From positions 558,001 through 622,000 of the forward strand of contig NZ_CP085193.1 in assembly GCF_024298965.1 (NCBI RefSeq): DNA of 64,000 nt. The letters are read 5' to 3'. Both the position numbers and the translations under genes were made by a program. The notes under the pieces were generated by a model that saw only the letters and a program-made list of their open reading frames with translations, did no database searches and had not been told where the DNA came from. Source of the DNA: Streptomyces rapamycinicus NRRL 5491. Its GTDB lineage: Bacteria; Actinomycetota; Actinomycetes; Streptomycetales; Streptomycetaceae. This document shows, piece after piece, positions 29,344 to 44,871 of this stretch. Within the stretch, counting starts at the first letter, position 1; each line of letters opens with the position of its first letter.

Positions 29344-31323
29344 GTGTTCTCCTCATCCGCCGCACCACCCGGCCCGACCGCACCGCACATGGTCGTCTGC
29401 GGTGACGACGCGCTCGCACACCGCCTGGCCGCGGAACTCCACTACGTCTACCGGGCACGGGTGACCCTCATCGTCCCGGGCGGCGTCTCCCTGGCGGAAC
29501 CCACGGGGCGGAGGATGGCCGGAGGCCGTGCCGCCGCACTCTTCGGCCGGTTGAGCACCGCTGTCGGACGGGTCCCGCCGCCGAGGTCCCCGGACGACGC
29601 CGCCCCGGACCGGGGAGTGGAGGTCATGGAAGCCCCGGCGCTGGACGACGAGGTGCTGGCCGAGGCGGGTATCGAGCATGCGACAGCGCTCGCCCTGGTC
29701 CATGACGACGACGAGGTCAACATCCACGCCGCGCTCCGCGCTCGCCGCCTCAACCCCCGGCTGCGCCTGGTCATCCGGCTCTACAACCGCAAACTCGGCC
29801 AGCATCTGGAGGAACTCCTCGACCAGGCGGCGTGGGTGGCCGCCCCCGGTATGGACCCGGCCGAGCTGGACGCGTCCACCACCGTGCTGTCGGACGCCGA
29901 CACCGTCGCCCCCGCACTCGCGGCCACCGCCGTCGCGGGCACCAGCAAGGTGGTACAGGCCGACGGGCTGCTGCTGCGTGCGGCCGAGCGCATTCCGTCC
30001 GGCTCCGACGAGGTCGCCGATCCGGGGCTGTGCACCCTCGCCCTGCTCTCGTCCACCACCAGCGATCCGGCCGGCAGCGAGGGCTCCGAGGGCAGCGGGG
30101 ACGAGGGGCCCAGGCTGCTGCCGGGGGACGAGGAGGTCGCCGCCGCCACCGGGCGCGGCACGGTGGTACTGGAAGCCGTCTCCGCCACCGGCACACCGCT
30201 GCCGCCGCGGCGGCTCGGCAGCCGCAGACTGCCGCTCGCCTCACTCTTCTCCCGCCGGCTGCGCTGGTCCGTCGCCGGTATGGCGATCGCCGTGCTCGCG
30301 CTCGCCGTCGCCTCCTGGTACTTCACCGGGGCCGGTCTCCTCCACGGGGCCTACCTCACGGTGCTGGACGTCCTGGCGATCGACGACCCGGCGCTGGACG
30401 AGCCGACCGGACGCAAGATCCTCCAGCTCCTGTCCGGGCTGACCGGACTGCTCCTGCTGCCCGTCCTGGTGGCCGCCGCGCTGGAAGCGCTGGGCACCTT
30501 CCGCACCGCGTCCGCGCTGCGCCGCCCGCCGCGCGGCCTCTCCGGCCACGTCGTGCTGCTCGGGCTCGGCAAGGTCGGCACCCGGGTCCTGGCCAGACTC
30601 CGGGAGATGGACATCCCCCTGGTGTGCGTGGAAGAGGACCCCCAGGCGCGCGGCATCCCGCTGGCCCGCAGGCTGGGGGTGCCGACCGTCATCGGCGATG
30701 TCACCCAGGAGGGCGTCCTGGAGGCCGCCAAAATCCAACGCGCACGCGCCCTGCTCGCCCTGACCAGCGTCGACACCACCAACCTGGAGGCGACACTGTA
30801 CGCCCGCTCGGTCAAACCCCGGCTGCGGGTGGCCCTGCGCCTGTACGACGACCACTTCGCCACCGCCGTCTACCGCACCCTGCGCGCCGCCCACCCGCAG
30901 GCGCTGACCCGCAGCCGCAGCGTCTCCAGTCTGGCGGCGCCCGCCTTCGCCGGGGCGATGATGGGCCGCCAGATCCTGGGCGCCATACCGGTCGAGCGCC
31001 GGGTACTGATCTTCGCCGCACTGCATGTCGCCGGACATCCGCGGCTGGAGGGGCGTACCGTCGCCGAGGCGTTCGCACCGGGCGCCTGGCGGGTGATCGC
31101 ACTGGACACGGCCGAACCCGAGGACCGGCAACGCGACCTCGCGGCGGCACCCCGCTACGGCGAAGCCACCAGGCAACCCGCCCTGGTGTGGGAACCGCCC
31201 CCCGACTACGTCCTGCGGTCACAGGACCGCGTGGTGCTGGCCGTCACCCGCCAGGGCCTGGGTGAACTTCTCGCCGGTCACCCACCCGCCGGTATTCACG
31301 GATCGCAGGGAGCGGACCGCTGA
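29344..31323 (+). CDS. Channel-like membrane protein with two RCK/TrkA-N domains
   Basis: 659 residues from GTG 29344. The first Rossmann-like TrkA-N domain (about 15-220) begins HMVVCGDDALAHRLAAEL. Two membrane helices near residues 310-332 (WSVAGMAIAVLALAVASWYF) and 357-380 (LSGLTGLLLLPVLVAAALEA) flank a loop. A second, better preserved RCK domain starts HVVLLGLGKVGTRVLARL (GxGxxG) and continues to the C-terminus with a TrkA-C-like end. The layout resembles CASTOR/POLLUX-type or other NAD-binding K+ channel proteins, but the selectivity filter TVGYG is absent from the loop (TVLDVLAIDDPALD). Ion specificity, and even channel function, are therefore uncertain. Confidence 0.75.
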   Translation: MFSSSAAPPGPTAPHMVVCGDDALAHRLAAELHYVYRARVTLIVPGGVSLAEPTGRRMAGGRAAALFGRLSTAVGRVPPPRSPDDAAPDRGVEVMEAPALDDEVLAEAGIEHATALALVHDDDEVNIHAALRARRLNPRLRLVIRLYNRKLGQHLEELLDQAAWVAAPGMDPAELDASTTVLSDADTVAPALAATAVAGTSKVVQADGLLLRAAERIPSGSDEVADPGLCTLALLSSTTSDPAGSEGSEGSGDEGPRLLPGDEEVAAATGRGTVVLEAVSATGTPLPPRRLGSRRLPLASLFSRRLRWSVAGMAIAVLALAVASWYFTGAGLLHGAYLTVLDVLAIDDPALDEPTGRKILQLLSGLTGLLLLPVLVAAALEALGTFRTASALRRPPRGLSGHVVLLGLGKVGTRVLARLREMDIPLVCVEEDPQARGIPLARRLGVPTVIGDVTQEGVLEAAKIQRARALLALTSVDTTNLEATLYARSVKPRLRVALRLYDDHFATAVYRTLRAAHPQALTRSRSVSSLAAPAFAGAMMGRQILGAIPVERRVLIFAALHVAGHPRLEGRTVAEAFAPGAWRVIALDTAEPEDRQRDLAAAPRYGEATRQPALVWEPPPDYVLRSQDRVVLAVTRQGLGELLAGHPPAGIHGSQGADR

Positions 31324-31329
31324 GACGGC

Positions 31330-31633
31330 GCAGCATGCCCGCGGGCGCGGCGCCTGGCGGTACGCCAGGAGGAGTGGCATGGGTCTGGGCGAGCCGGCCG
31401 GCCGGGGCCTCCCACAGGTTGGCCTGCCGCACCTTCACCAGGAACTCCATGTCCAGCTTGCTCACCGGGCCGGCCGTGGTGACGACGTCACCGGGGGCGG
31501 CCGGTTTGGCGCTGGGGAAGCTCGCCGAGGAGTTCTCGGTGGCGTTCGCATCGCCTCGGGTGGCCCAGACGATGGCTCCGGCGATGACGGCCAGGGCGAC
31601 GAGCAGGTCCGCTACGGTCCCGCTCCCCGGCAC
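31330..31633 (-). pseudogene. Truncated DUF4142 secreted/membrane protein
   Basis: About 75 codons on the minus strand encode a hydrophobic N-terminus (ADLLVALAVIAGAIVWA) and then GPVSKLDMEFLVKVRQANLW and EAPAGRLAQTHA, matching the beginning of the DUF4142 domain of Streptomyces proteins. The rest of the domain is missing: the frame continues into sequence antisense to the channel gene. Its start is also unclear. It is probably a deletion remnant at the 3' boundary of the channel gene. Confidence 0.5.
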
Positions 31634-31753
31634 CTTGACCGCGTGGGTGCACGATGAGCGTCTTGAGACAGTGCAACATTTGCATGACCGAAGCAGCTGG
31701 CGGCGGCCCCGGCGGCGGTGTAGTCACCGTTCCAATGGGGCCGTCGCCCGACA

Positions 31754-32245
31754 TCACCAATTGGCGTGCGCCTGGGAGCCGTTCGGCACCGCCGGCTCGC
31801 CGCCCGCCTCCGTGAACGCCTGCAACGCGTCGATCAGATAGCGACGCCGGCCCGGCGGCATGGCGTCGACGATGCGTGCGATCTCCTGCCGACGCCGTTC
31901 GGTGGCCTCAGCCACGATCCGCCGCCCGCCCTTGGTGAGCGAGATCACGCTGGTGCGCCGGTCCTCCGCCGAGACGCCGCGCGCGGCCATTCCCGCCGCG
32001 ACCAGACGGTCGATCATGCGCATCGCGGTCGACGGCTGTACGCCCAACTCCCCCGCCAGCCCGGACAGGCTCAGCGGCCCCCGGCCGTCGAGCACCACCA
32101 GCATCCGGAACTGCGGCGGTGTCAGGGACTCCTCCACCTCGGCCAGTGACCGGACTGAGACGGCGACCAGCAGACGGGACGCGGTCAGCAGGGCGGAGAC
32201 CATCGCCTCGGCATCGGACTCGGGGCCTGGAGAACGGCGCGGCAT
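31754..32245 (-). CDS. MarR-family transcriptional regulator
   Basis: 163 residues; ATG 32245 after AAAGGG. The winged-helix core is LTPPQFRMLVVLDGRGPL, LAGELGVQPSTAMRMIDRLV and ARGVSAEDRRTSVISLTKGG, with long dimerisation helices at both ends. It lies 74 bp after the PCuAC-like gene in the same direction, at the end of the isonitrile/copper run, and could be its regulator. No operator palindrome was recognised in the 74-bp gap. Confidence 0.88.
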   Translation of the reverse strand: MPRRSPGPESDAEAMVSALLTASRLLVAVSVRSLAEVEESLTPPQFRMLVVLDGRGPLSLSGLAGELGVQPSTAMRMIDRLVAAGMAARGVSAEDRRTSVISLTKGGRRIVAEATERRRQEIARIVDAMPPGRRRYLIDALQAFTEAGGEPAVPNGSQAHANW

Positions 32246-32319
32246 ACGCCCTTTCTACCGTCTCGGCCCGCCGTACGGGGCACCGGCCGCTTCCCACGCC
32301 CGCGCTCGGACAGGCTCAC

Positions 32320-32832
32320 TCAGCCCTCGCCCGGCCGCACGACGACGGCGTTGGTCCCGACACGTCCGCCGTGTTCGAAGCGGAGGGTGAAGGGCACCAG
32401 GTCTCCGGGCCGCCAGCGGGCCGTGGCCGGGACGGTCACATCACTGGTGAACGGTGACATGTCGAGCGTGCCGCCCGCCGGAACCGGCAGGGACTCCGCG
32501 GCCTGGGGGTAGGCCGATCCCCGCCCGGTCATCCGGTGACGGCTGAGCGAGATCCCCCCGGTGACCGCGGGGGACGTCACCTCGACCAACCGGTCCCGCG
32601 CCCCGCCGGTGTTGGTGATCCGGAAGAACGCGGCGGTCCGGGGCACGCCCGGGGCGGGAAGGAAGAGCCGTGCGCCGGTGACGTCGATACGCGGGGGGCT
32701 GCCCGCGCTGCCCGAGGCGGTCCACACGGCGAGACCACCCAGCGCCAGGACACAGGCGCAGGCCGGAGCGACCGCGGCCCGTAGGGAATCGGTGAGGCGA
32801 CGGTGGCTGGGCGTCCAGGAGGGCTTTGTCAT
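32320..32832 (-). CDS. PCuAC-like periplasmic copper chaperone family protein with incomplete copper motif
   Basis: 170 residues from ATG 32832 (MTKPSWTPSHRRL). One N-terminal membrane anchor/signal (AVAPACACVLALGGLAVW) precedes a DUF461/PCuAC-type beta-barrel: RTAAFFRITNTGGARDRLVEVTSP and SLSRHRMTGRG. In true PCuAC proteins copper is bound by H-x(10)-M and a second H-x-M; here HRM is kept but the second site reads DMSPFTSDVTV without His. It follows the copper ATPase by 74 bp. It probably retains the fold with altered or lost Cu(I) affinity, or uses a different ligand set. Confidence 0.7.
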   Translation of the reverse strand: MTKPSWTPSHRRLTDSLRAAVAPACACVLALGGLAVWTASGSAGSPPRIDVTGARLFLPAPGVPRTAAFFRITNTGGARDRLVEVTSPAVTGGISLSRHRMTGRGSAYPQAAESLPVPAGGTLDMSPFTSDVTVPATARWRPGDLVPFTLRFEHGGRVGTNAVVVRPGEG

Positions 32833-32906
32833 CGGGCGGGTCTCCACCTCGGTATCGGGCCGCGGTCGCGGGCAGGCAGTCCGCCCGCGAGCGGGGAACA
32901 GGGGCG

Positions 32907-35186
32907 TCACAGTGGTGTCCGGGCGGCGGGCCGGGTGGGGCGGCCGCCGGTCGGTGACGGCTGCCAGACACGCAGCCGCAGGCTGTTGCCGACCACGAGC
33001 AGCGAGCTGGCCGACATCGCGACAGCGGCCGGCATGGGGCTGAGCAGGCCGACCATGGCCAGCGGCACGGTCACGACGTTGTAGCCGAACGCCCAGACCA
33101 GGTTGGCCCGGATCGTGCCCAGCGCACCGCGGGCGAGGCTGACCGCGTCCGCCAGGGTCTCGATGTCGCCGCGTACCAGGGTCACGTCGGCCGCGCCGAT
33201 CGCCACGTCCGTGCCCGTGCCCATGGCGATGCCGAGGTCGGCGCCGGCCAGGGCGGCCGCGTCGTTGACACCGTCGCCGACGACGGCGACCCGGTAGCCC
33301 CGCTCCCGCAGCCCGCGGACGAGGGCTGCCTTGTCCTCCGGGGTACATCGGGCGTGCACCTCCTCGATGCGGAGGTCGGCGGCGACGGCGCGGGCGGGCG
33401 CCTCCCGGTCGCCGGTGGCGAGCACGGGTCGCACCCCCAGGCGGCGCAGCCGGTCCACGGCCCGGTAGCTTCCCGGCCGCAGGACGTCCCCGACCTCGAT
33501 CAGTGCCTCCGTCTCGCCGTCGACGCGGACCACGACCGGTGTGCGGGCGGCGGTCTCGCCGGCCGACAGCGCCCGGGCCAGGGTGGGCGGCAACGTGTCG
33601 TCCGGGGCCAGGACCTCGATCAACCGGCCCGCCACCCGCCCGCGGACGCCCTTCCCCGGCAGTGCGAGGAAGTCGGCCACGGCCGGAAGCGGCTCCCCGG
33701 GAACGGTTCGCCGGGCATACGCGGCGATGGCACGCCCCAGCGGATGTTCCGACCCTTGTTCGACCGCGCCCGCCAGCCGGACCGCCCGCTCCTCGCCGAG
33801 TCCGCCCGGCACGGCGGTGACCCGGGCGACGCTCATGTGCCCGGAGGTGAGTGTTCCGGTCTTGTCGAGCACCACGGCATCGAGGTGCCGCAGTCCCTCC
33901 AGCGCCCGCGCCCCGCTGACCAGGACGCCGAGTTGGGCTCCCCGGCCGGTCGCCGCCATCAGGGCGGTGGGGGTCGCCAGGCCCAGCGCACAGGGGCACG
34001 CCACGACCAGGACGGCCACGCACGCGGTGATCGCCGCCTGCGGCTCGGCTCCGGCCCCGAGCCAGAATCCGAGCACCGTGACGGCAAGGGCCAGCACGAC
34101 GGGGACGAAGACCCCCGCGACCTTGTCGGCGAGCCGCTGCGCCCGTGCCTTGCCCGCCTGGGCCTCGGTCACCAGCCGGGTGATACGGGACAGTTGGGTG
34201 TCGGCCCCAACCGCGGTGGCCCGTACGAGAATCAGCCCTCCGGCGTTGACGGCACCGCCGATCACCGGCGCTCCGGGGCCGACTTCCACCGGCTCGCTCT
34301 CCCCGGTCACCAGGGAGAGATCGACGGCCGAGCCGCCCTCCACAACGGTGCCGTCGGTGGCCAGGCGCTCCCCGGGGCGGACGGCGAAGACCTGACCGAC
34401 CCGCAGTTGTCCGATCGGGATCAGGCGCTCGCCGTCGCCGTCGCGTACCGAGACTTCCTTGGCGGCCAGCCGGGCCAGTGAGCGCAGTGCCGCGCCGGTT
34501 CCCCGCCGGGCCCGTGCTTCCAGGTGGCGGCCCGCCAGGACGAACAGCGGTACGCCGACGGCGGCCTCCAGATAGATGTGGGCGACGCCGTCCGGGGCGG
34601 TGGGCACCAGGCTGAACGGCATCCGCATGCCGGGGTCGCCGGCGCCGCCGAAGAACAGCGCGTAGGAGGACCAGGCGAAGGAGGCCGCGACTCCCAGCGA
34701 CACGAGGGTGTCCATGGTCGCCGCCGAGTGCCGCAGTCCGCGCGCCGCCCGCAGGTGGAAGGGCCAGGCTCCCCAGACGACGACGGGCGCGGCGAGTACG
34801 AAGCACAGCCACTGCCAGTCGCGGAACTGCAGACCGGGAACCATCGACAGGATCAGCACCGGCACCGCGAGCAGAGTCGTGATCACCAGCCGGTCGCGCT
34901 CCTGCCGGGCGTCCTCCGCTTCGTCGTCGTCCTCGCGCCGTCGCTGTCCGGGCGGCTCGGGGAGCGCGGCGGAATAGCCGGCCTGCTCGACGGCCGCGAT
35001 CAGCTGGTCCGGGCCGATCCCGGAGGGGTGGTTCACCCGGGCCCGGCCGGTGGCGAGGTTCACGTTCGCCGTGACCCCGTCCAGCCTGGCCAGCTTCTTC
35101 TCGACGCGCCGCACACAGGCCGCACAGGTCATTCCGCCGACGGAGAGGTCGGTCACGACCGCCTGGGAAGTCGATTCGGCGGCCAT
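32907..35186 (-). CDS. Copper-translocating P1B-type ATPase
   Basis: 759 residues. ATG overlaps the upstream stop (TGATG). It has an N-terminal HMA domain with GGMTCAACV (C21, C24), eight membrane spans, the actuator TGESEPVEVG, the ion-path CPC motif in VACPCALGLATP, the phosphorylation site DKTGTLTSG, the SEHPLG nucleotide-domain motif and GDGVNDAAALAGADLG. CPC with a single MTCxxC domain indicates Cu(I) (or Ag(I)) export. It is probably co-transcribed with the isonitrile biosynthesis genes upstream (only 30 bp separate them from the small gene before it), tying that pathway to copper. Confidence 0.93.
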   Translation of the reverse strand: MAAESTSQAVVTDLSVGGMTCAACVRRVEKKLARLDGVTANVNLATGRARVNHPSGIGPDQLIAAVEQAGYSAALPEPPGQRRREDDDEAEDARQERDRLVITTLLAVPVLILSMVPGLQFRDWQWLCFVLAAPVVVWGAWPFHLRAARGLRHSAATMDTLVSLGVAASFAWSSYALFFGGAGDPGMRMPFSLVPTAPDGVAHIYLEAAVGVPLFVLAGRHLEARARRGTGAALRSLARLAAKEVSVRDGDGERLIPIGQLRVGQVFAVRPGERLATDGTVVEGGSAVDLSLVTGESEPVEVGPGAPVIGGAVNAGGLILVRATAVGADTQLSRITRLVTEAQAGKARAQRLADKVAGVFVPVVLALAVTVLGFWLGAGAEPQAAITACVAVLVVACPCALGLATPTALMAATGRGAQLGVLVSGARALEGLRHLDAVVLDKTGTLTSGHMSVARVTAVPGGLGEERAVRLAGAVEQGSEHPLGRAIAAYARRTVPGEPLPAVADFLALPGKGVRGRVAGRLIEVLAPDDTLPPTLARALSAGETAARTPVVVRVDGETEALIEVGDVLRPGSYRAVDRLRRLGVRPVLATGDREAPARAVAADLRIEEVHARCTPEDKAALVRGLRERGYRVAVVGDGVNDAAALAGADLGIAMGTGTDVAIGAADVTLVRGDIETLADAVSLARGALGTIRANLVWAFGYNVVTVPLAMVGLLSPMPAAVAMSASSLLVVGNSLRLRVWQPSPTGGRPTRPAARTPL

Positions 35187-35443
35187 CAGCGCCCGCTTCC
35201 GCGGTCCGTGCCCATGCCGCCCATGTCCATGCCGCCACCGCCGTGGCCGCCTCCCGGGCCGTCCTGTGTCGTGCCGGTGCCGTGCATGCCGGGGGCGACG
35301 GGCCCGGCGCCCGTGCCGACGGCGTAGGAGGCGGCGAACACCACCACGAGCAGCAGGAGGAAGCCGCACAGCGCGGGCGGGGGCAATGCTCCGGACAGCG
35401 ACGCGGCCGCCCGGCGGCGGGCCGGCCGGTGGTTCTGCTCCAT
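35186..35443 (-). CDS. Small single-span membrane protein with Met/His/Gly-rich tail
   Basis: 85 residues; GGAG lies nine bases before ATG 35443. A basic N-terminus, one membrane helix (ALCGFLLLLVVVFAASYAVG) and an outward or inward tail rich in Met, His and Gly (MHGTGTT, GGGHGGGGMDMGGMGTD) are visible. Such tails bind Cu(I)/Cu(II) in copper resistance proteins. The stop overlaps the ATPase start, so it is very likely an accessory copper-binding subunit. I know no named family. Confidence 0.7.
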   Translation of the reverse strand: MEQNHRPARRRAAASLSGALPPPALCGFLLLLVVVFAASYAVGTGAGPVAPGMHGTGTTQDGPGGGHGGGGMDMGGMGTDRGSGR

Positions 35444-35473
35444 GTGATGAGACTCCGATCAGTTCGTGCGGGT

Positions 35474-36409
35474 TCAGCCCTGTTCGTAATGGCTCGGTCT
35501 GCCGTGACGGTGGATGAGGCGGCCGAGCTGTTCCGCGCGGGTGCGGGGCAGGAGGGTCCAGGTGCCGTCGGTGCGGTGCAGGGCGGCGGAGTGCCAGGGG
35601 GTGGTCCAGACGTCGGGAACGTCGAGCAGGCGGATGCCGAACTTCGGGGCGCCGATGGGCTGGGGGTGGATGGACAACCGGATGGCGCGAGGGTGGTGTT
35701 CGGCGATCAGGTCGCCCCAGGCGCGGCTGCGCTGAATGACGCCGTAGGCGCGTTCGCGGCATTCGCGTTGGAGGGCGGAGCGGGTGCCGGTGAAGTCCGC
35801 GGTGTCGTCGACGAGGAATCGGGTGATGCCCCGGTACAGGGCCAGGGTGTCGCCCTCGGAGCGGACCTCCGCCCGCAGCGCCTCCAGGGTGGGGGCGTAA
35901 CCCTGGTGCACCCGGGCGCGCTTGGCGCCGTGGGGCAGGTCACCCAGCACATCGCGCAGGTCGAAGACGGAGAGGCGGCGCAGGTCCGCCTCCCGTATGA
36001 GGTGTCCGAGCGCGTCCGCGTAGGCGTCTATGTGGTCGTCCGGGACGCGGATGAGGTCGCCGAAGACATGGCCGTCGGAGCAGATGATCACGCGGGCGCC
36101 CGGCGGGTGGATCCGCTCGATCTCCTCGCACAGGGTGTTCAGGAAGCCGAGGGACAGGCGTTCGCCCTGGTCGGGGAGGTGGCCGAGGACCTTGGCGGGG
36201 TTGGGGGACTTGCACGGGAAGCCGGGCAGGGTGAAGACCACGGGTTCTCCGGCGCGTACGAACCCGGCGATCTGGCGCAGTTGGTGCGGGAACGCCATCA
36301 CTCCCCCGGGCACGGCGGCGGCCGTGCGGTGGTGCGGCAGGAGCAGGTTGAGGATGGCGGCGCTGATGCCGCTCGTGGAGCGGGTGTCCGGCGTGGTCGT
36401 CGGCGGCAT
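35474..36409 (-). CDS. DIT1/PvcA-family isonitrile synthase
   Basis: 311 residues from ATG 36409, with GGAGGA upstream; a longer frame begins 15 codons earlier without a ribosome site. Family hallmarks: VVFTLPGFPCKSPNPAK, VLGHLPDQGERLSLGFL, ICSDGHVFGDLIRVPD, and HPQPIGAPKFGIRLLD. PvcA/IsnA enzymes turn the alpha-amino group of Tyr or Trp into an isonitrile using ribulose-5-phosphate; yeast DIT1 acts in dityrosine synthesis with the P450 DIT2. No IsnB/PvcB-type Fe(II)/2-oxoglutarate oxygenase is present; a P450 and an AsnB-like enzyme lie just upstream instead. It is probably the committing enzyme of a metallophore pathway. Confidence 0.88.
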   Translation of the reverse strand: MPPTTTPDTRSTSGISAAILNLLLPHHRTAAAVPGGVMAFPHQLRQIAGFVRAGEPVVFTLPGFPCKSPNPAKVLGHLPDQGERLSLGFLNTLCEEIERIHPPGARVIICSDGHVFGDLIRVPDDHIDAYADALGHLIREADLRRLSVFDLRDVLGDLPHGAKRARVHQGYAPTLEALRAEVRSEGDTLALYRGITRFLVDDTADFTGTRSALQRECRERAYGVIQRSRAWGDLIAEHHPRAIRLSIHPQPIGAPKFGIRLLDVPDVWTTPWHSAALHRTDGTWTLLPRTRAEQLGRLIHRHGRPSHYEQG

Positions 36410-36481
36410 GGATGGGGTCCTCCGTGAAGGGGTGCGACGCGGGCATGCGGGCATGGCCGTATGGCGCCTCGGCGTGCCGCG

Positions 36482-37756
36482 TCATATGCGCCGGTCGTAG
36501 CCGACGAGCAGGTGGCTGGTGCCCCGTCCGAGGACCGCCGGGATCCACTCGAGGTCCTCGTCGTCGATGGCCAGGCGCAGTCCGGGCAGGCGGGCCAGGA
36601 GGGTGTCCAGGGCGATCCGGAGCTCGGCTCGGGCGAGGGCGGCTCCGGGGCAGAAGTGGATGCCGTGGCCGAAGGCCAGGTGGGGGTTGGGCGAGCGGTC
36701 GAGGTCGAGTGCGTCGGGGTCGGGGAAGCGGCGCGGGTCACGGTTGGCGGCGCACAGCGAGATGATCACCGAGTCACCGGCCGGGATCCTCGTACCGTGC
36801 AGGTCGCCGTCCTGGTCGAGGAAGCGCCAGGTGGTCAGCTCGAAGGCGCTGTCGTGGCGGAGGAGTTCGTCGACCGCGCGGGGCGTCAGACCGGGGTCGT
36901 CGCGCAGCCGGGCGAGCTCGGCGGGGTGGCGGAAGAGGGCGATCAGGGCGGTGGTGATCTGGTTGGTGACCGGTTCCTGTCCGGCCACGAGGAGCTGGAA
37001 GATCATCGAGTCCAGTTCCTCCGGCGACAGCTCTCGTCGGTCGCGGGCCGCGACGAGGCTGCTGAGCAGGTCGTCCTCCCGGTGTTCGCGCTTGTGGGCG
37101 ACGACGTCGGCGATATAGCCCTGCAGTCCGTGCAGACGGGACTCGTACAGCGGGCGTCCGGGGTCGGTGGGGCCCACCGGCTGGACGACCTTGCCCCAGT
37201 CGCGGTCGAAACGGGCGGCCAACTCGGGTGACAGGCCGATCACTTCGGCGAGGACCCGGAACGGGAAGTGGGCGGCGAAGCCGGTGACGAGGTCCGTGGG
37301 ACCGGTTTCCGGGAGGGCGTCGACGAGGGCGTCGGCCAGCTCCTGGAAACGGGGCCTCAGCCGCTCGATGCGGCGCGGGGTGAAGGCGTCGGTGACGAAG
37401 CGCCGCATCCGGGTGTGGTGGGGCGGGTCCTGGTGCAGTAGGTGGACCTGGAGCTGGGAGTGTTGTGGCTCGGGCATGATCGAGGCACGGGCGCGCCAGT
37501 GGTCGTTGCCGCGGTCGTGGTTCTTGCCCAGGCGGTCGTCGTTCAGCGCGGCGTGGGCGGCCTCGTAACCGGTGATGAGCCAGGCGTGCACACCGCTGGG
37601 GAACAGGACGCGATGGACCGGACCGCTCTCACGCATCCGCTGGTACAGCGGATAGGGGTCGGCCTTGTACGGGCAGCCCATGAGCGGGACCGGGTCGGGC
37701 AGGGGTTCGCCCGGGCGGTCCGCGTCCATGGCGGGCAGAGGTTCCTGGAGGGTCAT
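36482..37756 (-). CDS. Cytochrome P450 with altered I-helix
   Basis: 424 residues. The heme ligand is C369 in FGHGIHFCPGAALA; ELLR in DELLRHDS provides the ExxR motif; HLLHQDPPHHTRMRR is the C-helix heme-contact region. The I-helix reads LLVAGQEPVTNQI, so the usual acid-alcohol pair (E/D-T) is E261-P262, lacking the threonine that normally helps proton delivery. This suggests unusual chemistry such as phenol coupling, or water-assisted activation. It lies 72 bp before the isonitrile synthase and 12 bp after the asparagine synthetase-like gene. By analogy with DIT2 it may couple or hydroxylate an isonitrile-tyrosine product. Confidence 0.92.
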   Translation of the reverse strand: MTLQEPLPAMDADRPGEPLPDPVPLMGCPYKADPYPLYQRMRESGPVHRVLFPSGVHAWLITGYEAAHAALNDDRLGKNHDRGNDHWRARASIMPEPQHSQLQVHLLHQDPPHHTRMRRFVTDAFTPRRIERLRPRFQELADALVDALPETGPTDLVTGFAAHFPFRVLAEVIGLSPELAARFDRDWGKVVQPVGPTDPGRPLYESRLHGLQGYIADVVAHKREHREDDLLSSLVAARDRRELSPEELDSMIFQLLVAGQEPVTNQITTALIALFRHPAELARLRDDPGLTPRAVDELLRHDSAFELTTWRFLDQDGDLHGTRIPAGDSVIISLCAANRDPRRFPDPDALDLDRSPNPHLAFGHGIHFCPGAALARAELRIALDTLLARLPGLRLAIDDEDLEWIPAVLGRGTSHLLVGYDRRI

Positions 37757-37768
37757 GGGGGGCGCTCC

Positions 37769-39595
37769 TCAGAGGGCGAGGTCGGGCTGGTGGTGGTCGA
37801 GCCAGAGGGCGAGGTCGACGACGCGTTCGAGGCGGAGCCGGTGGCCCCAGCGGAGTTGATCGGGCGCGGTGTCGAGACAGGGCTTGATACGGGTCTCGTC
37901 GGCGAGGGAGCGGACCCGGTCATCGACGAGTGCGTCGCGGGCCATGTCCTGCAGGCCGCGGTTGTAGTCGGGGTGGTGGGTGGCCGGGTAGTGGTTCTTG
38001 GGCCGGCGCAGCACCGACTCGGGCGCCAGCCCCGTGCCCGCCGCGCGCAGCAGGCTCTTCTCCCGGCCGTCGAAGCTCTTCAGCGCCCATGGGGAGGTGA
38101 AGGCGTACTCGACGAGCCGGTGGTCGCAGTAGGGGACGCGCACTTCCAGGCCCTGTGCCATGCTCAGCCGGTCCTTGCGGTGCAGTAGCTGGCGCAGCCA
38201 GCGGGTGAGCGACAGGTGCTGCATCTCGCGTTGCCGGTGCTCGGTCTCCGACTCGCCTTCGAGGTGCGGTACGGCGGCCAGGGCGGCTTGGTATGTGTCG
38301 TCGCGGAACTCGCCGATTCTCAGGTCGAGTTCGGGGTTGAGCGGCATGGCGGCCTCGTCGCCGGTCACCAGCAGCCAGGGGAAGGTGGGCGCGGCGAGCG
38401 CCTTGGGGTCGTGGAACCAGGGGTAGCCGCCGAAGACCTCGTCGGCGGCCTCACCGGACACCGCGACGGTGGAGTGTTTCCGGATCTCCCCGAAGAGGAG
38501 GTAGAGGGAGGTGTCCATGTCGCCGACACCGATCGGCGAGTCGCGGGCCACGACCACGGCCTTGCGGTGCTCGGGGTCGAGCAGAGCACGCGGGTCCAGT
38601 ACGACCGTGCTGTGATCGGTGCCGATGAACGCGGCCGCTTCCGTGGCGTACGGGGTGTCGTGGCCGGTGCGCAGGACGTCGCCGGTGAAGGTTTCGGCCT
38701 GGTCGCTGTAGTCGACGGCGTAGGAGCGGATGCGGGCGTCCGGGCCCTCGCGCAGGCGCAGTTCGTCGGCGAGCAGGGCGGTCAGGACGGTGGAGTCGAT
38801 GCCGCCGGACATCAGGGAGCACAGCGGGACGTCGGCCTCCAGCTGGGCGCGGGCCGCGGTGCTCACCAGGTCGTGCACGCGGGCGACGGTCGTGTCCCGG
38901 TCGTCCGGGTGGGCGCCGGCCTCCAGTTGCCAGTAGCGGCGTTCGCGGATGCCGTGCCGGTTCAGCAGGAGCAGGCCGCCGGGCTCGACCTCCCGTACGC
39001 CCGACCACACCGTCGGGCCGGTGTTGAACAGCAGGCTGTACGCCTCGCGCAGCCCGTCCGCGTCCACCCGCGGCCGTATCTCCGGGTGGGCGAAGAGCGC
39101 CTTGGGCTCGGAGGCGAAGGCCAGGCCGCCGTCGATGGCGGCCCAGAACAGGGGTTTGACACCCAGCCGGTCGCGGACCAGGAGCAGCCGCCGCCTCCGC
39201 TCGTCCCACACGGCGAACGCGAACATGCCGTCCAGGTGGTCGGCCACCGCCTCGCCCCACTCGGCGTAGGCGCGCAGCACCACCTCGGTGTCACCGCGGG
39301 TCCGGAACTCGTGTCCCAGGTTTCTCAGTCGGGCGCGGAGCTCATGGTGGTTGTAGATCTCACCGCTGTAGGTGAGGACGCTCGCCGGGACATCCGGCCG
39401 GTCGGTCATCGGCTGTGCGCCGCCTTCGATGTCGATGACGGCCAGGCGGCGGTGGCCGATCGCGGCGTGCTCGCCGAGCCAGACTCCGCCCGCGTCGGGC
39501 CCGCGCGGGGTGAGAGTGGCGGTCATGGCCTCGATGACCGGGGCCTGGGTGCGGGCGTCCTGGTGGAAGGACACCCAGCCGGTGATTCCGCACAT
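37769..39595 (-). CDS. asnB: Glutamine-dependent asparagine synthetase-like amidotransferase
   Basis: 608 residues, with GAGGAG upstream of ATG 39595. The N-terminal class II glutaminase domain starts MCGITGW with the catalytic Cys2, and contains RGPDAGG, GHRRLAVID, YSGEIYN and GDTEVVL. The C-terminal synthetase domain has the PP-loop SLMSGGIDSTV and GEAADEVFGGYPW. In natural-product clusters such enzymes amidate a carboxylate or form amides other than asparagine. Its place between P450 and exporter genes makes a tailoring role more likely than primary metabolism, for example making an amide of the isonitrile acid. Confidence 0.92.
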   Translation of the reverse strand: MCGITGWVSFHQDARTQAPVIEAMTATLTPRGPDAGGVWLGEHAAIGHRRLAVIDIEGGAQPMTDRPDVPASVLTYSGEIYNHHELRARLRNLGHEFRTRGDTEVVLRAYAEWGEAVADHLDGMFAFAVWDERRRRLLLVRDRLGVKPLFWAAIDGGLAFASEPKALFAHPEIRPRVDADGLREAYSLLFNTGPTVWSGVREVEPGGLLLLNRHGIRERRYWQLEAGAHPDDRDTTVARVHDLVSTAARAQLEADVPLCSLMSGGIDSTVLTALLADELRLREGPDARIRSYAVDYSDQAETFTGDVLRTGHDTPYATEAAAFIGTDHSTVVLDPRALLDPEHRKAVVVARDSPIGVGDMDTSLYLLFGEIRKHSTVAVSGEAADEVFGGYPWFHDPKALAAPTFPWLLVTGDEAAMPLNPELDLRIGEFRDDTYQAALAAVPHLEGESETEHRQREMQHLSLTRWLRQLLHRKDRLSMAQGLEVRVPYCDHRLVEYAFTSPWALKSFDGREKSLLRAAGTGLAPESVLRRPKNHYPATHHPDYNRGLQDMARDALVDDRVRSLADETRIKPCLDTAPDQLRWGHRLRLERVVDLALWLDHHQPDLAL

Positions 39596-39633
39596 GGGTA
39601 CGACTCCTCGGTGAGGGCTTAACGATCGATGGC

Positions 39634-41043
39634 TCAGCGGGGTGCGGCGGGTGCCGTGTCGGTGGCGTTCTCTGGGAGGTTCGCCGCGCCCCGGGCGGGC
39701 AGGGCGAGCAGCGGCACGGCGAGGCAGGCGGCGGTGGCGGCCAGCACCAGGCCCGTCCGTGCGCCGCCGTCCTGGCCCGTCAGCCTCCAGACCGCCGTGG
39801 CAAGAGCCGGGCCGAGCGTGAAGCCGAGGCTGCGGGCGAGCTGAACCGTGGAGCCGACCGTGGCGGTGCGGCCCGGCGGAGCGGCGCCCATGACCAGGGC
39901 CTGGGTGGGTCCGCCGGTCAGCCCCATGCCGAGTCCGGCCAGGACCAGCCGCCAGGCCACCTCGGGCGGGGACCAGCCGTCGCCCGGCAGGACGAGCAGC
40001 AGCAGCCCGGTGGCGGTGAGGGCGGCACCGGTGACCGCGACGGGCCTGGCACCGTAGCGGTCGGCGAGCCGTCCGCCGAGGGGGCCCGCCAGCCCCATGC
40101 CGAGGGGGAAGGCGAGCACGGTCAGGCCCGTGGTGGTGGCGCTGACGTCCTCGTCGTGCCGGAGGTGCAGGGCGACCACGTAGTGCATGGCGGCGAAGCC
40201 CACCGCCAGCGCCAGCACCGCGCCGTGCACTCGCAGCAGCCCGGCGGCCCGCAGCACATCGGTCACCGGACGGCCGCCGGGGCCGCGCAGCCACCACCAC
40301 AGCGGCGGTACGGCGACGAGGGCGAGAGTGAGCCAGGCGGGTGCGTCGGAGACCAGGGTCAGGGACAGCAGCAGGATCGTTACGCCTGTGGCCACCAGGG
40401 CCGTATCGGCAAGGGAGCGCCGGTCCGGGCGGCTCAGGCGCCCGGACCGGGGCATCGCCCGCCACACCACCGCCAGCGCCACCGCGCAGAGCGGGATCTT
40501 GACCAGGAAGATCCAGCGCCAGCCCAGATGGTCCAGGACCAGCCCTCCGGCCGCCGGTCCGATGACGGCGCCCAGGGGGCCGAGGGTCGCCGGCACGCTC
40601 ATCGCGCGCCCGCGCAGTTCCGGCCGCACGGAGCGGACCGCCAGCACCGGCATCAGCACGAACAGCACCGCGCCGCACGCGCCCTGTCCGATCCGGGCGG
40701 CGATCAGCCACGACGCCCAGGGGGACGCGGCGGCGAGCGCGCTGCACAGCCCGAAGCCGGCGGTCGCGGCCAGCAGCGCGGGGCGGACGCCCATGCCGTC
40801 GAGCCACCGGCCGACGGGCAACAGAAGTGCGACGACCGGGAGTTGATAGCCCAGGACCACCCACTGCGCCGCCGCGTCCGACACCCCCAGGCCCTCGGAG
40901 ATGTCCGCGAGCGCCACGTTCACGATGTTCATGTCGAGCATCGCCACGAACGACAGCACGCCCGCAACTGACACCAGGAGCCAGCGGTCGTGCACTTCGG
41001 GTACGTCCCCGGGCCGCTCCGCACCGGACGTGTCGTCCGTCAT
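39634..41043 (-). CDS. DHA2-type MFS exporter
   Basis: 469 residues, about 14 membrane spans. It has the DHA2 motif LDMNIVNVALADI in helix 1 and GRWLDGMGVRP in loop 2-3. The ATG overlaps the ABC ATPase stop (ATGA). Such transporters export small metabolites and drugs by proton antiport; here it probably secretes the pathway product (or excess). Confidence 0.88.
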   Translation of the reverse strand: MTDDTSGAERPGDVPEVHDRWLLVSVAGVLSFVAMLDMNIVNVALADISEGLGVSDAAAQWVVLGYQLPVVALLLPVGRWLDGMGVRPALLAATAGFGLCSALAAASPWASWLIAARIGQGACGAVLFVLMPVLAVRSVRPELRGRAMSVPATLGPLGAVIGPAAGGLVLDHLGWRWIFLVKIPLCAVALAVVWRAMPRSGRLSRPDRRSLADTALVATGVTILLLSLTLVSDAPAWLTLALVAVPPLWWWLRGPGGRPVTDVLRAAGLLRVHGAVLALAVGFAAMHYVVALHLRHDEDVSATTTGLTVLAFPLGMGLAGPLGGRLADRYGARPVAVTGAALTATGLLLLVLPGDGWSPPEVAWRLVLAGLGMGLTGGPTQALVMGAAPPGRTATVGSTVQLARSLGFTLGPALATAVWRLTGQDGGARTGLVLAATAACLAVPLLALPARGAANLPENATDTAPAAPR

Positions 41044-41837
41044 GCGCCCTCCCGCTGGCCAACCACCGCGTTTTCGCGATGGTCGAGGGCGATCAGCGGG
41101 TCCCCGGTCAGCGGGTGCTCGATCACGGCCGCGCGCACGCCGAACACCTCGGCCAGCAGGGGCGGCCGCAGCACGTCGCGGGGTGCGCCGGAGGCGACCA
41201 CCCGGCCCTCGTGCAGGACGTGGAGCCGGTCGCACACGGAAGCGGCGGCGTTGAGGTCATGCAGCGAGACCAGGGTCGTACGACGGTGGCCGCGCAGCAG
41301 GGCGAGCAGTTCGACCTGGTGGCGGAGGTCGAGGTGGTTCGTCGGCTCGTCCAGGACCAGGACGTCCGTCGCCTGGGCGAACGCGCGGGCCAGCAACACG
41401 CGTTGGCGTTCGCCGCCGGACAGCTCGGTGTAGCGGCGGGCGGAGTGGTCCGCCATGCCGACATCGGCGAGGGCACGGGCGACCATGTCCCGGTCGGCGG
41501 CGTCGTCCCCGGCGAACGCCCGCTTGTAGGGGGTGCGCCCCATGGCGACGACCTCACGCACGGTCAGCTCGAAGTCCGCACCGCGCTCCTGCGGGAGGGC
41601 CCCGATGTGCCGGGCCGACCGGGCGGGGCTCAGCTCGCGGATGTCGGTGCCCTGGAGCAGCACGCGCCCGGCGGCGGGCTTCAGGTGCCGGTACACGGTC
41701 CGCAGGATCGTGGACTTGCCGCTGCCGTTGGGCCCGACCAGGCCGGTGATCTCGCCCGCGGCCGCGATGAGGTGGGCACCGGCCACGACCGTGCGCCCAG
41801 CATACGCGACGCTCAGGCCCTCGATGTCGATCCTCAA
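41040..41837 (-). CDS. ABC ATPase of a siderophore/metallophore importer (FecE/BtuD type)
   Basis: 265 residues from TTG 41837 with GGGGGAG six bases upstream; GTG 41870 is an alternative. Motifs: Walker A GPNGSGKST, Q-loop ALPQERGADF, signature LSGGERQRV, Walker B DVLVLDEPTNHLD and switch LVSLHDLN. The FecE-like PTNHLD and the helical domain typify ATPases that energise FecCD permeases. It forms an importer with the two preceding genes. Confidence 0.9.
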   Translation of the reverse strand: MRIDIEGLSVAYAGRTVVAGAHLIAAAGEITGLVGPNGSGKSTILRTVYRHLKPAAGRVLLQGTDIRELSPARSARHIGALPQERGADFELTVREVVAMGRTPYKRAFAGDDAADRDMVARALADVGMADHSARRYTELSGGERQRVLLARAFAQATDVLVLDEPTNHLDLRHQVELLALLRGHRRTTLVSLHDLNAAASVCDRLHVLHEGRVVASGAPRDVLRPPLLAEVFGVRAAVIEHPLTGDPLIALDHRENAVVGQREGA

Positions 41838-41911
41838 CCGGCGCTCCCCCGGTCCGTCCCCGGCTCCCACTTCCCCGGGCAGGACCGCGTCTCCCGCCCT
41901 CCGTCCGGTCC

Positions 41912-43006
41912 TCAACTCCCGCTCCCCAACCGCCGGTCCAGCAGATACAGCAGCGCCGGAGCGCCGATCAGCGAGGTGACGACCCCGACCGGCAGTTCCT
42001 GCGTGTCCATGGCCGTGCGGCACACGAGGTCGACCACCACCAGCAGCAGCGCGCCGAAGAGCGCCGACAGGGGCAGCAGGCGACGGTGGTCACCGCCGAC
42101 GACCAGACGGCAGACGTGGGGGACCATGAGCGCGACGAAGGCGATGGCCCCGGAGACCGCGACGAGGACGCCGGTGAGCAGGCTGGTGACCGCGAACAGC
42201 TCACGGCGCAGCCGTACGACGTCGATGCCGAGCCCGGCGGCCGTCTCATCACCCATCAGCAGCGCGTTGAGCCCTCGGGCCCGGGCCTGGAGCAGCAGCA
42301 GGACCGCCGGAACCGCCACCGCGGGGGCGGCCAGCAGGGGCCAGCTCGCGCCGCTCAGGCTGCCCATGAGCCAGAACAGCACACTGTGCGTCTGCTGCTC
42401 GTCCCCGGCCTGGAGGACGAGGTAGCTGGTGAAGCCGGACAGGAACTGCCCGATGGCCACCCCGGCGAGCACCAGTCTGAGCGGCGCGAATCCCCCGCCG
42501 CGCCGGGCCACCACCCAGACGAGGGCGAAGGTGGCCAGGGCTCCCGCGAACGCGGCACCGGACAGGCCGAGGCCCAGAGCGCCCCCGGTGCCGAGGCCGA
42601 GGACGATGGCGGCTACGGCGCCGAGGGAGGCGCCGTTGGAGACGCCCAGGAAGTACGGGTCGGCCAGTGGGTTGCGGACGAGGGCCTGCATCGCCGTACC
42701 GACCAGACCGAGCCCGGCACCCACCAGCGCGGCCAACAGGGCGCGGGGCAGGCGCAGTTGCCAGACGATCAGATCGTTCGTGCCGGGCCTGGGGGCATGG
42801 CCGGTCAGCCTGCGCCACACCACGCTCCACACCTCACCCGGCGGGATCGACGTGGAGCCCCAGGCGACCGCCGCTGTGAGGGCCGCGAGCAGCGCGACCG
42901 CGAGGAGCAGCGCCAGCGGCCCGGCGGGCACGGAACGCCGCGTGCGCGCGGGGGCCTCGGTGGCGCCATCGGTGGCGCCCTTCCTGCTCACCGTGGTGTC
43001 GAGCAC
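41912..43006 (-). CDS. FecCD-family permease of a metallophore importer
   Basis: 364 residues from GTG 43006, two bases after the binding-protein stop. About ten membrane spans, with FecCD signature words WQLRLPRALLAALVGAGLGL, MQALVRNPLADPYFLGVSNG and FVALMVPHVCRLVVGGDHR. It is a single permease subunit, so the transporter is probably a homodimer. This family imports chelated Fe(III), cobalamin, heme and other metal complexes. Confidence 0.9.
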   Translation of the reverse strand: MLDTTVSRKGATDGATEAPARTRRSVPAGPLALLLAVALLAALTAAVAWGSTSIPPGEVWSVVWRRLTGHAPRPGTNDLIVWQLRLPRALLAALVGAGLGLVGTAMQALVRNPLADPYFLGVSNGASLGAVAAIVLGLGTGGALGLGLSGAAFAGALATFALVWVVARRGGGFAPLRLVLAGVAIGQFLSGFTSYLVLQAGDEQQTHSVLFWLMGSLSGASWPLLAAPAVAVPAVLLLLQARARGLNALLMGDETAAGLGIDVVRLRRELFAVTSLLTGVLVAVSGAIAFVALMVPHVCRLVVGGDHRRLLPLSALFGALLLVVVDLVCRTAMDTQELPVGVVTSLIGAPALLYLLDRRLGSGS

Positions 43007-43008
43007 GG

Positions 43009-44091
43009 TCAGCCGACCTTGCCCGGGTAGAGGGTCTTGGCGATCTTCTGGACGGTGTCGGCGTTCTCGACGCCGGCGATGGTGGTCTGCTCGGAACCGA
43101 TGCGCAGGAAGTGGCCTTCCCTGACGGCCTTCAGGCCCTTGGTGGCGGAGTTCGACTCGAGCCACTTCCGCGCCTCGTCGAACGCCTTCTCGTTCGCCGC
43201 CCGGCTGCCCCGGTTACGGACGCCCAGCTGGATCCAGTCCGGGTTCCTGGAAATGACGTCCTCCCAGCCGACCTGCTTGTAGTCGCCGTCGCAGTCGGCG
43301 AAGACATTGCGGGCACCGGCCAGAGTGATCACCGCATTGGCGACCTGCCTCTCGCAGACGGCGGTGGGCTGCTTGGTACCGGCGTCGTAGTCGAAGAAGA
43401 AGTACGTCGGCCGCTCGTCCTCCGCCGTCCTGCCGACCGCTTTCCGGACGGCGTCCACCTTCTCCTTCATGCCGCCGACGAGTTCCTTCGCCTTCGCGCT
43501 CGTACCGGTGACCGCGCCGAGGGAGGTGATGTCGGCCTCCACCGCGGACAACTCGGTCAGCGCGCGCTTGTTCCGCGCCGCACAGGCGGTGGACTTGAGG
43601 TAGATGTGTTTGATCCCGGCCGCCTTGTACTCCTCCTCCGTCGGAGCGTCGCCCATGCCGCCGCCCATGTTCATCGAGGCGAAGGTGTCGATGTACACAT
43701 CCGCCCCGGAGCCGAGGAGCTTCTCCTTCGGGATCACGGATTGGGCGAGCACCTTCACCTTCCGCGCCCGCGCGTCGAGTTCACCGGGCAGCGTGCCCTC
43801 ACCGGGCGGGAAACCGGTGCCGAGCACCTTGTCGCCGGCGCCCAGGCGGAGCAGCAGCTCCAGGCTGGAGGCGTTGCTGGTGACGATCTTCTCGGGGGCC
43901 TTCGAGAACGTGGTCTCGGCGCCCGCGCAGTCGGTGACGGTGACCGGGTAGTCGCCGGTGGTGGGCTTCTCGGCGCCGGCACTCGCCTTGTCGCCGTCCC
44001 CACTGCCGCTGCCGCCTCCGTCGCCACAGCCCGCCACGAGGAGGCCGCCCAGCACGACGGCCGTCGTACCCCACCACACACGAGAACGCAT
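43009..44091 (-). CDS. Lipoprotein substrate-binding protein of a metallophore importer
   Basis: 360 residues; AGGAG seven bases before ATG 44091. The lipobox LLVAGC places the lipid-modified Cys at 22. A Gly/Ser-rich tether precedes a class III (FepB/BtuF-like) binding fold: KIVTSNASSLELLLRLG, GADVYIDTFA, VGWEDVISRNPDWIQLG. The region MNMGGGMGD near residue 138 and several Cys (ACAAR, VCERQ, DCDG) are Met/Cys-rich for this family and could contact soft metal ions such as copper. It is the first gene of the run leading into the isonitrile synthase, so its ligand may be the pathway's own metal complex. Confidence 0.88.
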   Translation of the reverse strand: MRSRVWWGTTAVVLGGLLVAGCGDGGGSGSGDGDKASAGAEKPTTGDYPVTVTDCAGAETTFSKAPEKIVTSNASSLELLLRLGAGDKVLGTGFPPGEGTLPGELDARARKVKVLAQSVIPKEKLLGSGADVYIDTFASMNMGGGMGDAPTEEEYKAAGIKHIYLKSTACAARNKRALTELSAVEADITSLGAVTGTSAKAKELVGGMKEKVDAVRKAVGRTAEDERPTYFFFDYDAGTKQPTAVCERQVANAVITLAGARNVFADCDGDYKQVGWEDVISRNPDWIQLGVRNRGSRAANEKAFDEARKWLESNSATKGLKAVREGHFLRIGSEQTTIAGVENADTVQKIAKTLYPGKVG

Positions 44092-44532
44092 CGAAACACT
44101 CCTGGATCCACTTGGTACACGGGGAGGGAACGTCGCCCCGGTTCAGTAGTCGTGGCGGATCCGGCATCGGTTCCCGCCCACGCGTCGAACGGGGACGGGG
44201 CCGCCTTTTCGCGGACCCGTCCCCGGGGGCGGGCGGTCTGTCGAGGGGTGCGCGCTCCGCCGTACCGGAGGCAGCATGCTCGGAAACGGCTGGGTGCGGG
44301 GCAGCGTGGCATTTGGCGTACGACCTCGCGGGCGGCGCCGTGAGCTTCCCCCAAGGTGCCGGGCCCATGTCCAGGGTCTTGGTAGCTTTACCGAGTGAGC
44401 CTGGGCTGCGGCAGCGTCGAGGGAGGCACGCGGCACCGCCTCCCGCGCCCGCCCTGCCACATGCCACCATCACCCCGCGTCCGCCCCGCGCCGCCGACCC
44501 CATTGCCCGCATCACCCTCCGAAAGGCACCCC

Positions 44533-44871
44533 ATGAGCCAGCCTTCCGCCGGTCCGATCGTCGAGCGGATGGATGCCCGGCATCGATACGAGATCCTCGT
44601 CGACGGTGAGCGCGCCGGCCTGACCGCCTACCGCGACCGCGGTGAGCAGCGCGTCTTCCATCACACGGAGGTCGGCGACGCGTTCGCCGGGCAGGGCCTG
44701 GCCGCGCTGTTGGTCCAGCGGGCACTCGCCGACGTACGCGGCTCCGGGAAGCGGATCGTGCCCGTCTGCTCGTACGTGGCCAAGTTCGTAAAGAAGCACG
44801 GTGAGTTCGCCGACATCACCGACCCCGTGACCCCCGATGTCCTGCGATGGCTGGAAGCGGAGCTGGACTGA
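44533..44871 (+). CDS. Small GNAT-like N-acetyltransferase (YjdJ/Gcn5-related)
   Basis: 112 residues; GAAAGG six bases before ATG 44533. It has a compact GNAT core without the usual N-terminal strands: LVDGERAGLTAYRD, FHHTEVGDAFAGQGLAALLV (acetyl-CoA loop) and KRIVPVCSYVAKFVKKH. This short type is described for plant/bacterial YjdJ-like proteins, whose substrates are mostly unknown. It is divergent from the metallophore operon. Confidence 0.88.
   Translation: MSQPSAGPIVERMDARHRYEILVDGERAGLTAYRDRGEQRVFHHTEVGDAFAGQGLAALLVQRALADVRGSGKRIVPVCSYVAKFVKKHGEFADITDPVTPDVLRWLEAELD

Follow-up and report, generated by a model that had tools for sequence, protein, structure and literature searches.

Hazimycin, which Matsuda and co-workers reportedly described in 2024 with Kitasatospora purpeofusca as the producer (J. 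Antibiot. 77:228-237, cited in PMC11085572), is reportedly an actinobacterial chalkophore, and we take it to be a dimer of tyrosine-isonitrile amides. Here, we analyzed a stretch of 64,000 nucleotides from the genome of Streptomyces rapamycinicus NRRL 5491 (NZ_CP085193.1, positions 558,001 to 622,000; hereafter the window) in which ten genes bring together the content of a hazimycin-type cluster, namely a DIT1/PvcA isonitrile synthase, an adjoining cytochrome P450, an AsnB-type gene, and exporter and importer genes, with a copper block composed of a Met/His-rich peptide, the ATPase CopA and a PCuAC chaperone. We put at roughly 60% the probability that this is a hazimycin-type chalkophore operon driven from one promoter recognized by an extracytoplasmic function (ECF) sigma factor, the likeness to hazimycin being one of gene content. 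A preliminary description of the locus had stated that no described cluster has this content, which is probably wrong as DIT1, P450, AsnB and the importer/exporter genes fit what we take the hazimycin pathway to be; the chemistry of the cluster is probably already known, and dozens of Streptomyces loci contain the same core. What is new here is an ECF-type promoter shared before the importers of these loci, the observation that most of the loci encode an ECF sigma factor and, ahead of it, a membrane protein rich in Met and His whose end carries the translation-arrest motif RGPP, and, in a strain devoid of such a local pair, a paralogous module located 1.45 Mb away beside a second perfect promoter.

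The hazimycin cluster, as we know its content, has an isonitrile synthase, a P450 and importer/exporter genes in common with the window, whereas in the window AsnB and CopA/PCuAC also form part of what appears to be one operon. The diisonitrile lipopeptides of SF2768 and of the mycobacterial nrp cluster likewise pair an isonitrile chalkophore with copper transport; in contrast, the ten genes of the window include neither the nonribosomal peptide synthetase nor the acyl-ligase that we take to belong to those pathways, and include DIT1/PvcA instead. PvcAB (paerucumarin) and IsnAB share the PvcA-family synthase but, as we know them, rely on a PvcB/IsnB-type oxygenase that is absent from the ten genes. 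Fungal isocyanide clusters (xanthocillin, crm) also encode an isocyanide synthase and, to our knowledge, have other tailoring and regulation and no FecCD importer. Low copper is reported to upregulate the crm cluster (PMC9381783, PMC5974471). In Mycobacterium tuberculosis, induction of SigC upregulates both the isonitrile nrp operon and the P-type ATPase gene ctpB; whether CtpB exports copper is left open in the same report (PMC7924339). This regulon appears to be the closest tested parallel to the one proposed below.

Proteins that arrest their own translation provide the second point of comparison. In Bordetella, copper relieves the RAPP arrest of CruR, thereby shutting off a copper-uptake operon through Rho (PMC9426467). 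Seven RAPP/RGPP proteins of Streptomyces lividans stall ribosomes, and two of these have four predicted helices, are encoded upstream of ECF sigma genes and contain conserved regions of unknown relevance (PMC12992588). The membrane proteins described here resemble CruR (PMC9426467) and SLIV_33595/SLIV_33605 (PMC12992588) in bearing a C-terminal RAPP/RGPP motif upstream of an ECF sigma gene, the two S. lividans proteins being likened by motif and gene position. CruR acts as the copper sensor of a copper-uptake operon and senses by CXXC, whereas the conserved residues here are His and Met. The covered parts of both papers state no link to chalkophores, and a literature search conducted chiefly among papers available without subscription returned no chalkophore tied to an RGPP protein. 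For Streptomyces coelicolor, one study lists three targets of the sigma factor SCO0864 (PMC9205884).

Comparisons were made across 134 loci: the best 80 of 212 with flanks of up to 10 kb per side (set A), and 54 loci picked for long contigs from 118 PF05141 matches in genomes of the family (set B). The two sets overlap partly in species, and some loci are shortened. In an alignment of 53 regions 5' of the binding-protein gene, a single element stood out as strongly conserved, GGGAAC-N17-CGACTACTG; its -35 starts 84 nt before the start codon in the window. This element lies on the minus strand at 44144..44175 (-35 GGGAAC at 44175-44170, a 17-nt spacer, and -10 CGACTACTG at 44152-44144), is the sole mismatch-free match in the window, and displays the conserved -35 and -10 at fixed spacing that characterize an ECF regulon. 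The strict pattern GGGAAC-N17-CGACT[AT][CG] occurred at 125 sites in the 134 loci, 89 before the binding-protein gene, 19 before the gene of the major facilitator superfamily (MFS) exporter, 5 before other cluster genes and 12 elsewhere, so that the importer is preceded by a strict site in 89 of the 114 importer-bearing loci. No site was found with spacers of 14-16 or 18-20 nt, or with the reversed pattern.

Because the strict pattern was derived from these loci, tests outside the deriving loci matter more. Among 21 set A loci with a reversed importer that stood outside the deriving alignment (L085, L086, L090, L093-L099, L101-L111), the site was present upstream of the binding-protein gene in 14 and not in 7. 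Furthermore, the genome of the window strain (12.47 Mb) contains two mismatch-free GGAAC-N17-CGACTACTG sites, against 0 for the reversed control and 0.06 expected from the base composition of the window. One precedes the window operon and the other precedes a PepSY-TM gene at 2.05 Mb. Across the 134 DIT1 loci, only one weak match to the PepSY-TM gene was found (L038, 28.7%). The same promoter-like element was also seen in two genomes, around position 1501 of L208 and L209, at related open reading frames (ORFs) (HWYEDDALWSDFASTMF / QWYEDDALWSDFASTMF), where a copper link was not seen.

A PF05141 gene is present in 98 of 394 genomes of the family, and the window strain has a single one in its genome (12,466,108 bp, one contig). 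Homologues of the window P450 were found in 78/80 set A and 42/54 set B loci. Within these DIT1+P450 loci, importer genes accompany the pair in 74/78 and 37/42, an MFS gene in 67/78 and 30/42, and AsnB in 55/78 and 20/42 cases for sets A and B, respectively. The common Streptomyces layout, on one strand, is importer, MFS, AsnB, P450 and DIT1. Kitasatospora-like loci have the importer on the opposite flank and in reverse orientation, and often have no AsnB; loci of this kind such as L094, L098, L099 and L102-L111 combine DIT1, P450 and importer with no AsnB match, and possibly direct a non-amidated relative of the compound. A record titled Archangium violaceum Cb vi76 (L083, 8601-10924 and upstream) contains a Streptomyces-like DIT1 (72%) and P450 (83%) adjoining an MFS gene, an ATP-grasp/L-amino-acid-ligase-like gene and a radical S-adenosylmethionine gene. 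Streptomyces-like genes under a myxobacterial label would reflect either transfer or a mislabelled contig.

An ECF sigma gene was found in 58/78 set A and 35/42 set B DIT1+P450 loci, and in most cases the product of the gene before it is a membrane protein rich in Met and His. When rows were chosen by motif, R[AG]PP was found among the last 35 residues of an ORF upstream of the sigma gene in 87 of 95 sigma loci; four of these ORFs were judged spurious and left out of the alignment (L085, L147, L162, L165), and the eight loci devoid of such an ORF (L048, L060, L091, L100, L108, L154, L180, L185) include some near contig ends. Because these rows had been selected by the motif, RGPP was recounted among homologues found by similarity alone with the motif disregarded, and 86 of 88 had RGPP within their last 35 residues, the two exceptions (L060, L154) both being partial matches. 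For the related protein encoded at 2.05 Mb in the window strain, RGPP was present in all 120 best of 1046 homologues. An alignment of 113 sequences (83 motif-chosen locus rows and every fourth of 120 listed homologues) showed H46, M49, H95, M158 and H162 (L055 numbering) conserved at 88-100%. RGPP membrane proteins in databases (P0121-P0240) are often labelled 'PE-PGRS family', an apparent misannotation.

The window operon itself adjoins neither a sigma nor an RGPP gene, and no RGPP arrest protein is encoded in the window. Among 24 sigma-like matches in the genome of this strain, the two closest to the L055 sigma factor are encoded at 2.05 Mb and 11.17 Mb and share 64% identity with it in both cases. 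The idea that the hazimycin-locus sigma lies elsewhere in this genome was rejected; as the best matches reach 64%, versus 77-95% in eight collinear set B loci, it has probably been lost in this strain. The 2.05-Mb sigma gene (2,053,127-2,053,777), about 1.45 Mb from the window operon, is part of a module (L134, 3900-11801 onward) encoding a DUF5134 protein, a CopZ-like heavy-metal-associated (HMA) protein, PepSY-TM, an RGPP protein, the ECF sigma, a Met/His peptide, CopA and PCuAC. Here the sigma gene comes after that of the RGPP protein and before those of the peptide, CopA and PCuAC, and alongside, in the opposite direction, runs the PepSY-TM gene with the second perfect promoter. In a sigma tree, in which the positions of long or mis-framed rows (L148, L060, L154, L050, L163, L082, L088, L100) were disregarded, the 2.05-Mb sigma grouped with L142, L147, L153 and four more (98/89), outside the 38-row collinear hazimycin-type clade; because of this grouping, we can only infer that the 2.05-Mb pair took over the window operon in trans. 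The 11.17-Mb ECF sigma paralogue (L133, 9389-10375) has no RGPP partner within the stretch read.

Copper genes accompany the cluster beyond the window. A CopA match was found in 28/42 set B DIT1+P450 loci versus 1/12 set B DIT1 loci without the P450, and in 16/78 set A loci, where flanks frequently end before the CopA position. Eight of the 28 set B CopAs are 77-81% identical to that of the window and twenty are 63-71% identical, so that the CopAs are of several types. In the collinear Streptomyces loci the genes run Met-rich peptide, CopA, PCuAC, Met/His-rich membrane protein, ECF sigma, importer, MFS, AsnB, P450 and DIT1. The peptide-CopA-PCuAC block was seen 3' of DIT1 only in the window, L032, L033, L035 and L092; 12 further Streptomyces loci have their orthologous CopA on the upstream side of the importer. 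A CopA tree of 44 sequences, in which the positions of the long rows L165 and L185 and of the 7.53-Mb row from the window strain were disregarded, placed the window CopA in a 17-row clade (100/99) made of the five 3'-block and the twelve upstream-block loci, outside which fell the CopAs encoded at 2.05 Mb (66% identity) and 7.53 Mb (56%) in the same genome. Since this clade spans both positions, we interpret the CopA-PCuAC block as an inherited partner of the cluster, the block having moved, on the evidence of the tree. The possibility that CopA is a core paralogue adjoining by chance was rejected by the same tree.

The ten genes occupy the minus strand from 44091 to 32320, belong to the families given in the preliminary description and are separated by nine gaps all under 80 bp, in agreement with that description. 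With the starts chosen here the gaps are, in gene order, 2, 74, -4, 38, 12, 72, 30, -16 and 74 bp, so that four of nine, rather than the six reported earlier, are below 15 bp or overlapping, a count depending on the start codons chosen. The importer comprises a substrate-binding protein (43009..44091; PF01497), a FecCD-type permease (41912..43006; PF01032) and an ATP-binding cassette ATPase (41040..41837; family match, TTG start assumed); its top-scoring models, putative F420-0 and corrinoid/B12, all scored under cut-off. These genes are followed by the MFS exporter (39634..41043; family match) and by the AsnB-type glutamine-dependent amidotransferase (37769..39595), with asparagine synthase and glutaminase domains (TIGR01536, 462.9 bits, cut-off 267.1) and a sequence beginning MCGI, i.e., with Cys2 present. 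The P450 (36482..37756; PF00067) has PikC chains as its best solved relatives, these being general bacterial P450 matches. The isonitrile synthase (35474..36409; PF05141, 250.7 bits) matches the PvcA structure 3e59 (E 2.6e-83) and is 94% identical to a Streptomyces iranensis protein; the species names among the best 120 of its 1176 matches are Streptomyces, and its sole NCBIfam match is L-tyrosine isonitrile synthase at 272.2 bits, under the cut-off of 600.

Downstream lie a peptide of 85 residues rich in Met and His with one hydrophobic stretch (35186..35443), which matches no family and has homologues encoded ahead of CopA in other loci as well as at 2.05 Mb in the same genome, the Cu(I) P1B-type ATPase CopA with its HMA domain (32907..35201; TIGR01511, 486.8 bits, cut-off 397) and the PCuAC chaperone (32320..32832; PF04314, 65.8 bits). 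A consensus scan, the only search made, found no sigma-70-like site or terminator within 31300-44600, and an internal sigma-70 promoter or terminator was rejected on that basis. The MarR gene placed earlier at the operon end is indeed present (31754..32245), 74 bp beyond the PCuAC gene, but does not hold as a conserved part: it was matched in one of 80 set A loci (L035) and in one of 134 loci overall, some with shortened flanks, and MarR was therefore rejected as the pathway regulator.

Gene content and comparative genomics support the original proposal of a pathway for an isonitrile metallophore that is exported and taken up again, with copper-handling genes alongside. We infer its enzyme chemistry, product, acting sigma factor, copper response and direction of switching as follows. 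DIT1 would form the isonitrile of tyrosine, the AsnB-type enzyme is predicted to turn the carboxylate into a primary amide, and the P450 is predicted to couple phenols, joining two such units to give a diisonitrile. Export would fall to the MFS protein, and retrieval of the copper-loaded compound to the binding protein, FecCD permease and ATPase. CopA and PCuAC, possibly with the Met/His peptide, would then pass the captured copper outward to extracytoplasmic cuproenzymes, or shed excess. Transcription would begin just downstream of 44144 under an ECF sigma, the production of which an RGPP arrest protein would control; the two are encoded in the same locus in most relatives and, in this strain, about 1.45 Mb away beside a second CopA/PCuAC. 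At low copper the RGPP protein would stall, the sigma would be made and the operon transcribed, a direction of switching borrowed from CruR. More tentatively, and at somewhat less than even odds, RGPP proteins may serve as copper-starvation sensors for isonitrile chalkophores across Streptomycetaceae, stalling leading through the sigma factor to the GGGAAC-N17-CGACTACTG promoters of chalkophore import and synthesis and of PepSY-TM, with the window clade having lost its local pair and been taken over in trans by the paralogous pair 1.45 Mb away.

Several results weigh against an ECF-driven hazimycin-type operon and its regulation. AsnB is missing from 23/78 set A and 22/42 set B DIT1+P450 loci, and a sigma match was not found in 20/78 and 7/42, respectively, some loci being shortened in each case; of the 114 loci with an importer, 25 have no strict promoter. 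The genome of the window strain does not contain the hazimycin-locus sigma, leaving two 64% paralogues as candidates. When up to one mismatch was allowed in this genome, 8 sites (the 2 perfect ones and 6 more) were found against 33 control matches, and the six one-mismatch sites were treated as chance. The pattern GGAAC-N17-CGACTACTGG gave 15 matches in 61 genomes and the reversed control gave the same 15, so that this count proves nothing; 8 of these sites precede PepSY-TM genes, 2 precede hazimycin-type importers and 5 precede other or unidentified genes. Finally, the role of CopA may lie in detoxification and not in supplying cuproenzymes with copper.

Extended to the whole block, that last idea makes of the copper genes a detoxification module regulated by copper excess, with the isonitrile as an antibiotic and CopA/PCuAC protecting against the copper that enters with it. 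CopA belongs to an exporter family, and isonitriles, hazimycin included, can be antibiotics. However, detoxification would not call for a high-affinity importer under a shared promoter, and the conserved ECF promoter sits at the importer, not at CopA, which makes such a module unlikely. Mycobacterial SigC, moreover, couples the isonitrile operon with ctpB and prevents copper starvation (PMC7924339). Still less probable are two unrelated abutting operons, one for biosynthesis and import (44091-35474) and one for copper efflux (35443-32320), as suggested by the 30-bp gap between them and by the different placement of the copper block in other Streptomyces loci: CopAs of one clade flank the cluster on one side or the other, L032, L033, L035 and L092 share the gene order, and the gap holds no promoter-like site in a sigma-70 consensus scan, the only one made.

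A product other than a hazimycin-type diisonitrile is somewhat easier to envisage, though still doubtful. It could be another tyrosine isonitrile, such as an amide that stays monomeric or a monomer with a different oxidation pattern, or it could bind a metal other than copper, given that the function of a P450 with PikC chains as best solved relatives is not readable from sequence, that AsnB-less relatives show variable tailoring, and that the importer scores best with F420-0 and corrinoid/B12 models, albeit below cut-off. Yet the CopA matches in 28/42 set B loci point to copper, and the DIT1/P450/AsnB content fits the presumed structure of hazimycin. The promoter might also belong to a different ECF sigma, the RGPP protein-sigma pair being merely a frequent neighbour: a consensus names no factor, 24 sigma-like matches exist in this genome, and the paralogue at 11.17 Mb comes without an arrest partner in the stretch read. 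We hold this to be unlikely in view of a sigma gene of this type in 93/120 DIT1+P450 loci (58/78 and 35/42, in partly overlapping sets) and of the second perfect site of the genome adjoining the 2.05-Mb sigma.

The shared promoter seems to tie the chemistry of these clusters to a copper-linked sigma factor and to a ribosome-stalling type of protein. What had been described as a clade-specific 'fused' operon thereby becomes a general, testable circuit through which streptomycetes may detect a lack of copper and activate isonitrile chalkophores, parallel to the mycobacterial SigC-isonitrile-ATPase regulon (PMC7924339). It also suggests a role for the kind of sigma-linked arrest protein whose conserved regions were of no known relevance in the S. 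lividans study (PMC12992588). Furthermore, the promoter signature could help find or wake silent isonitrile clusters.

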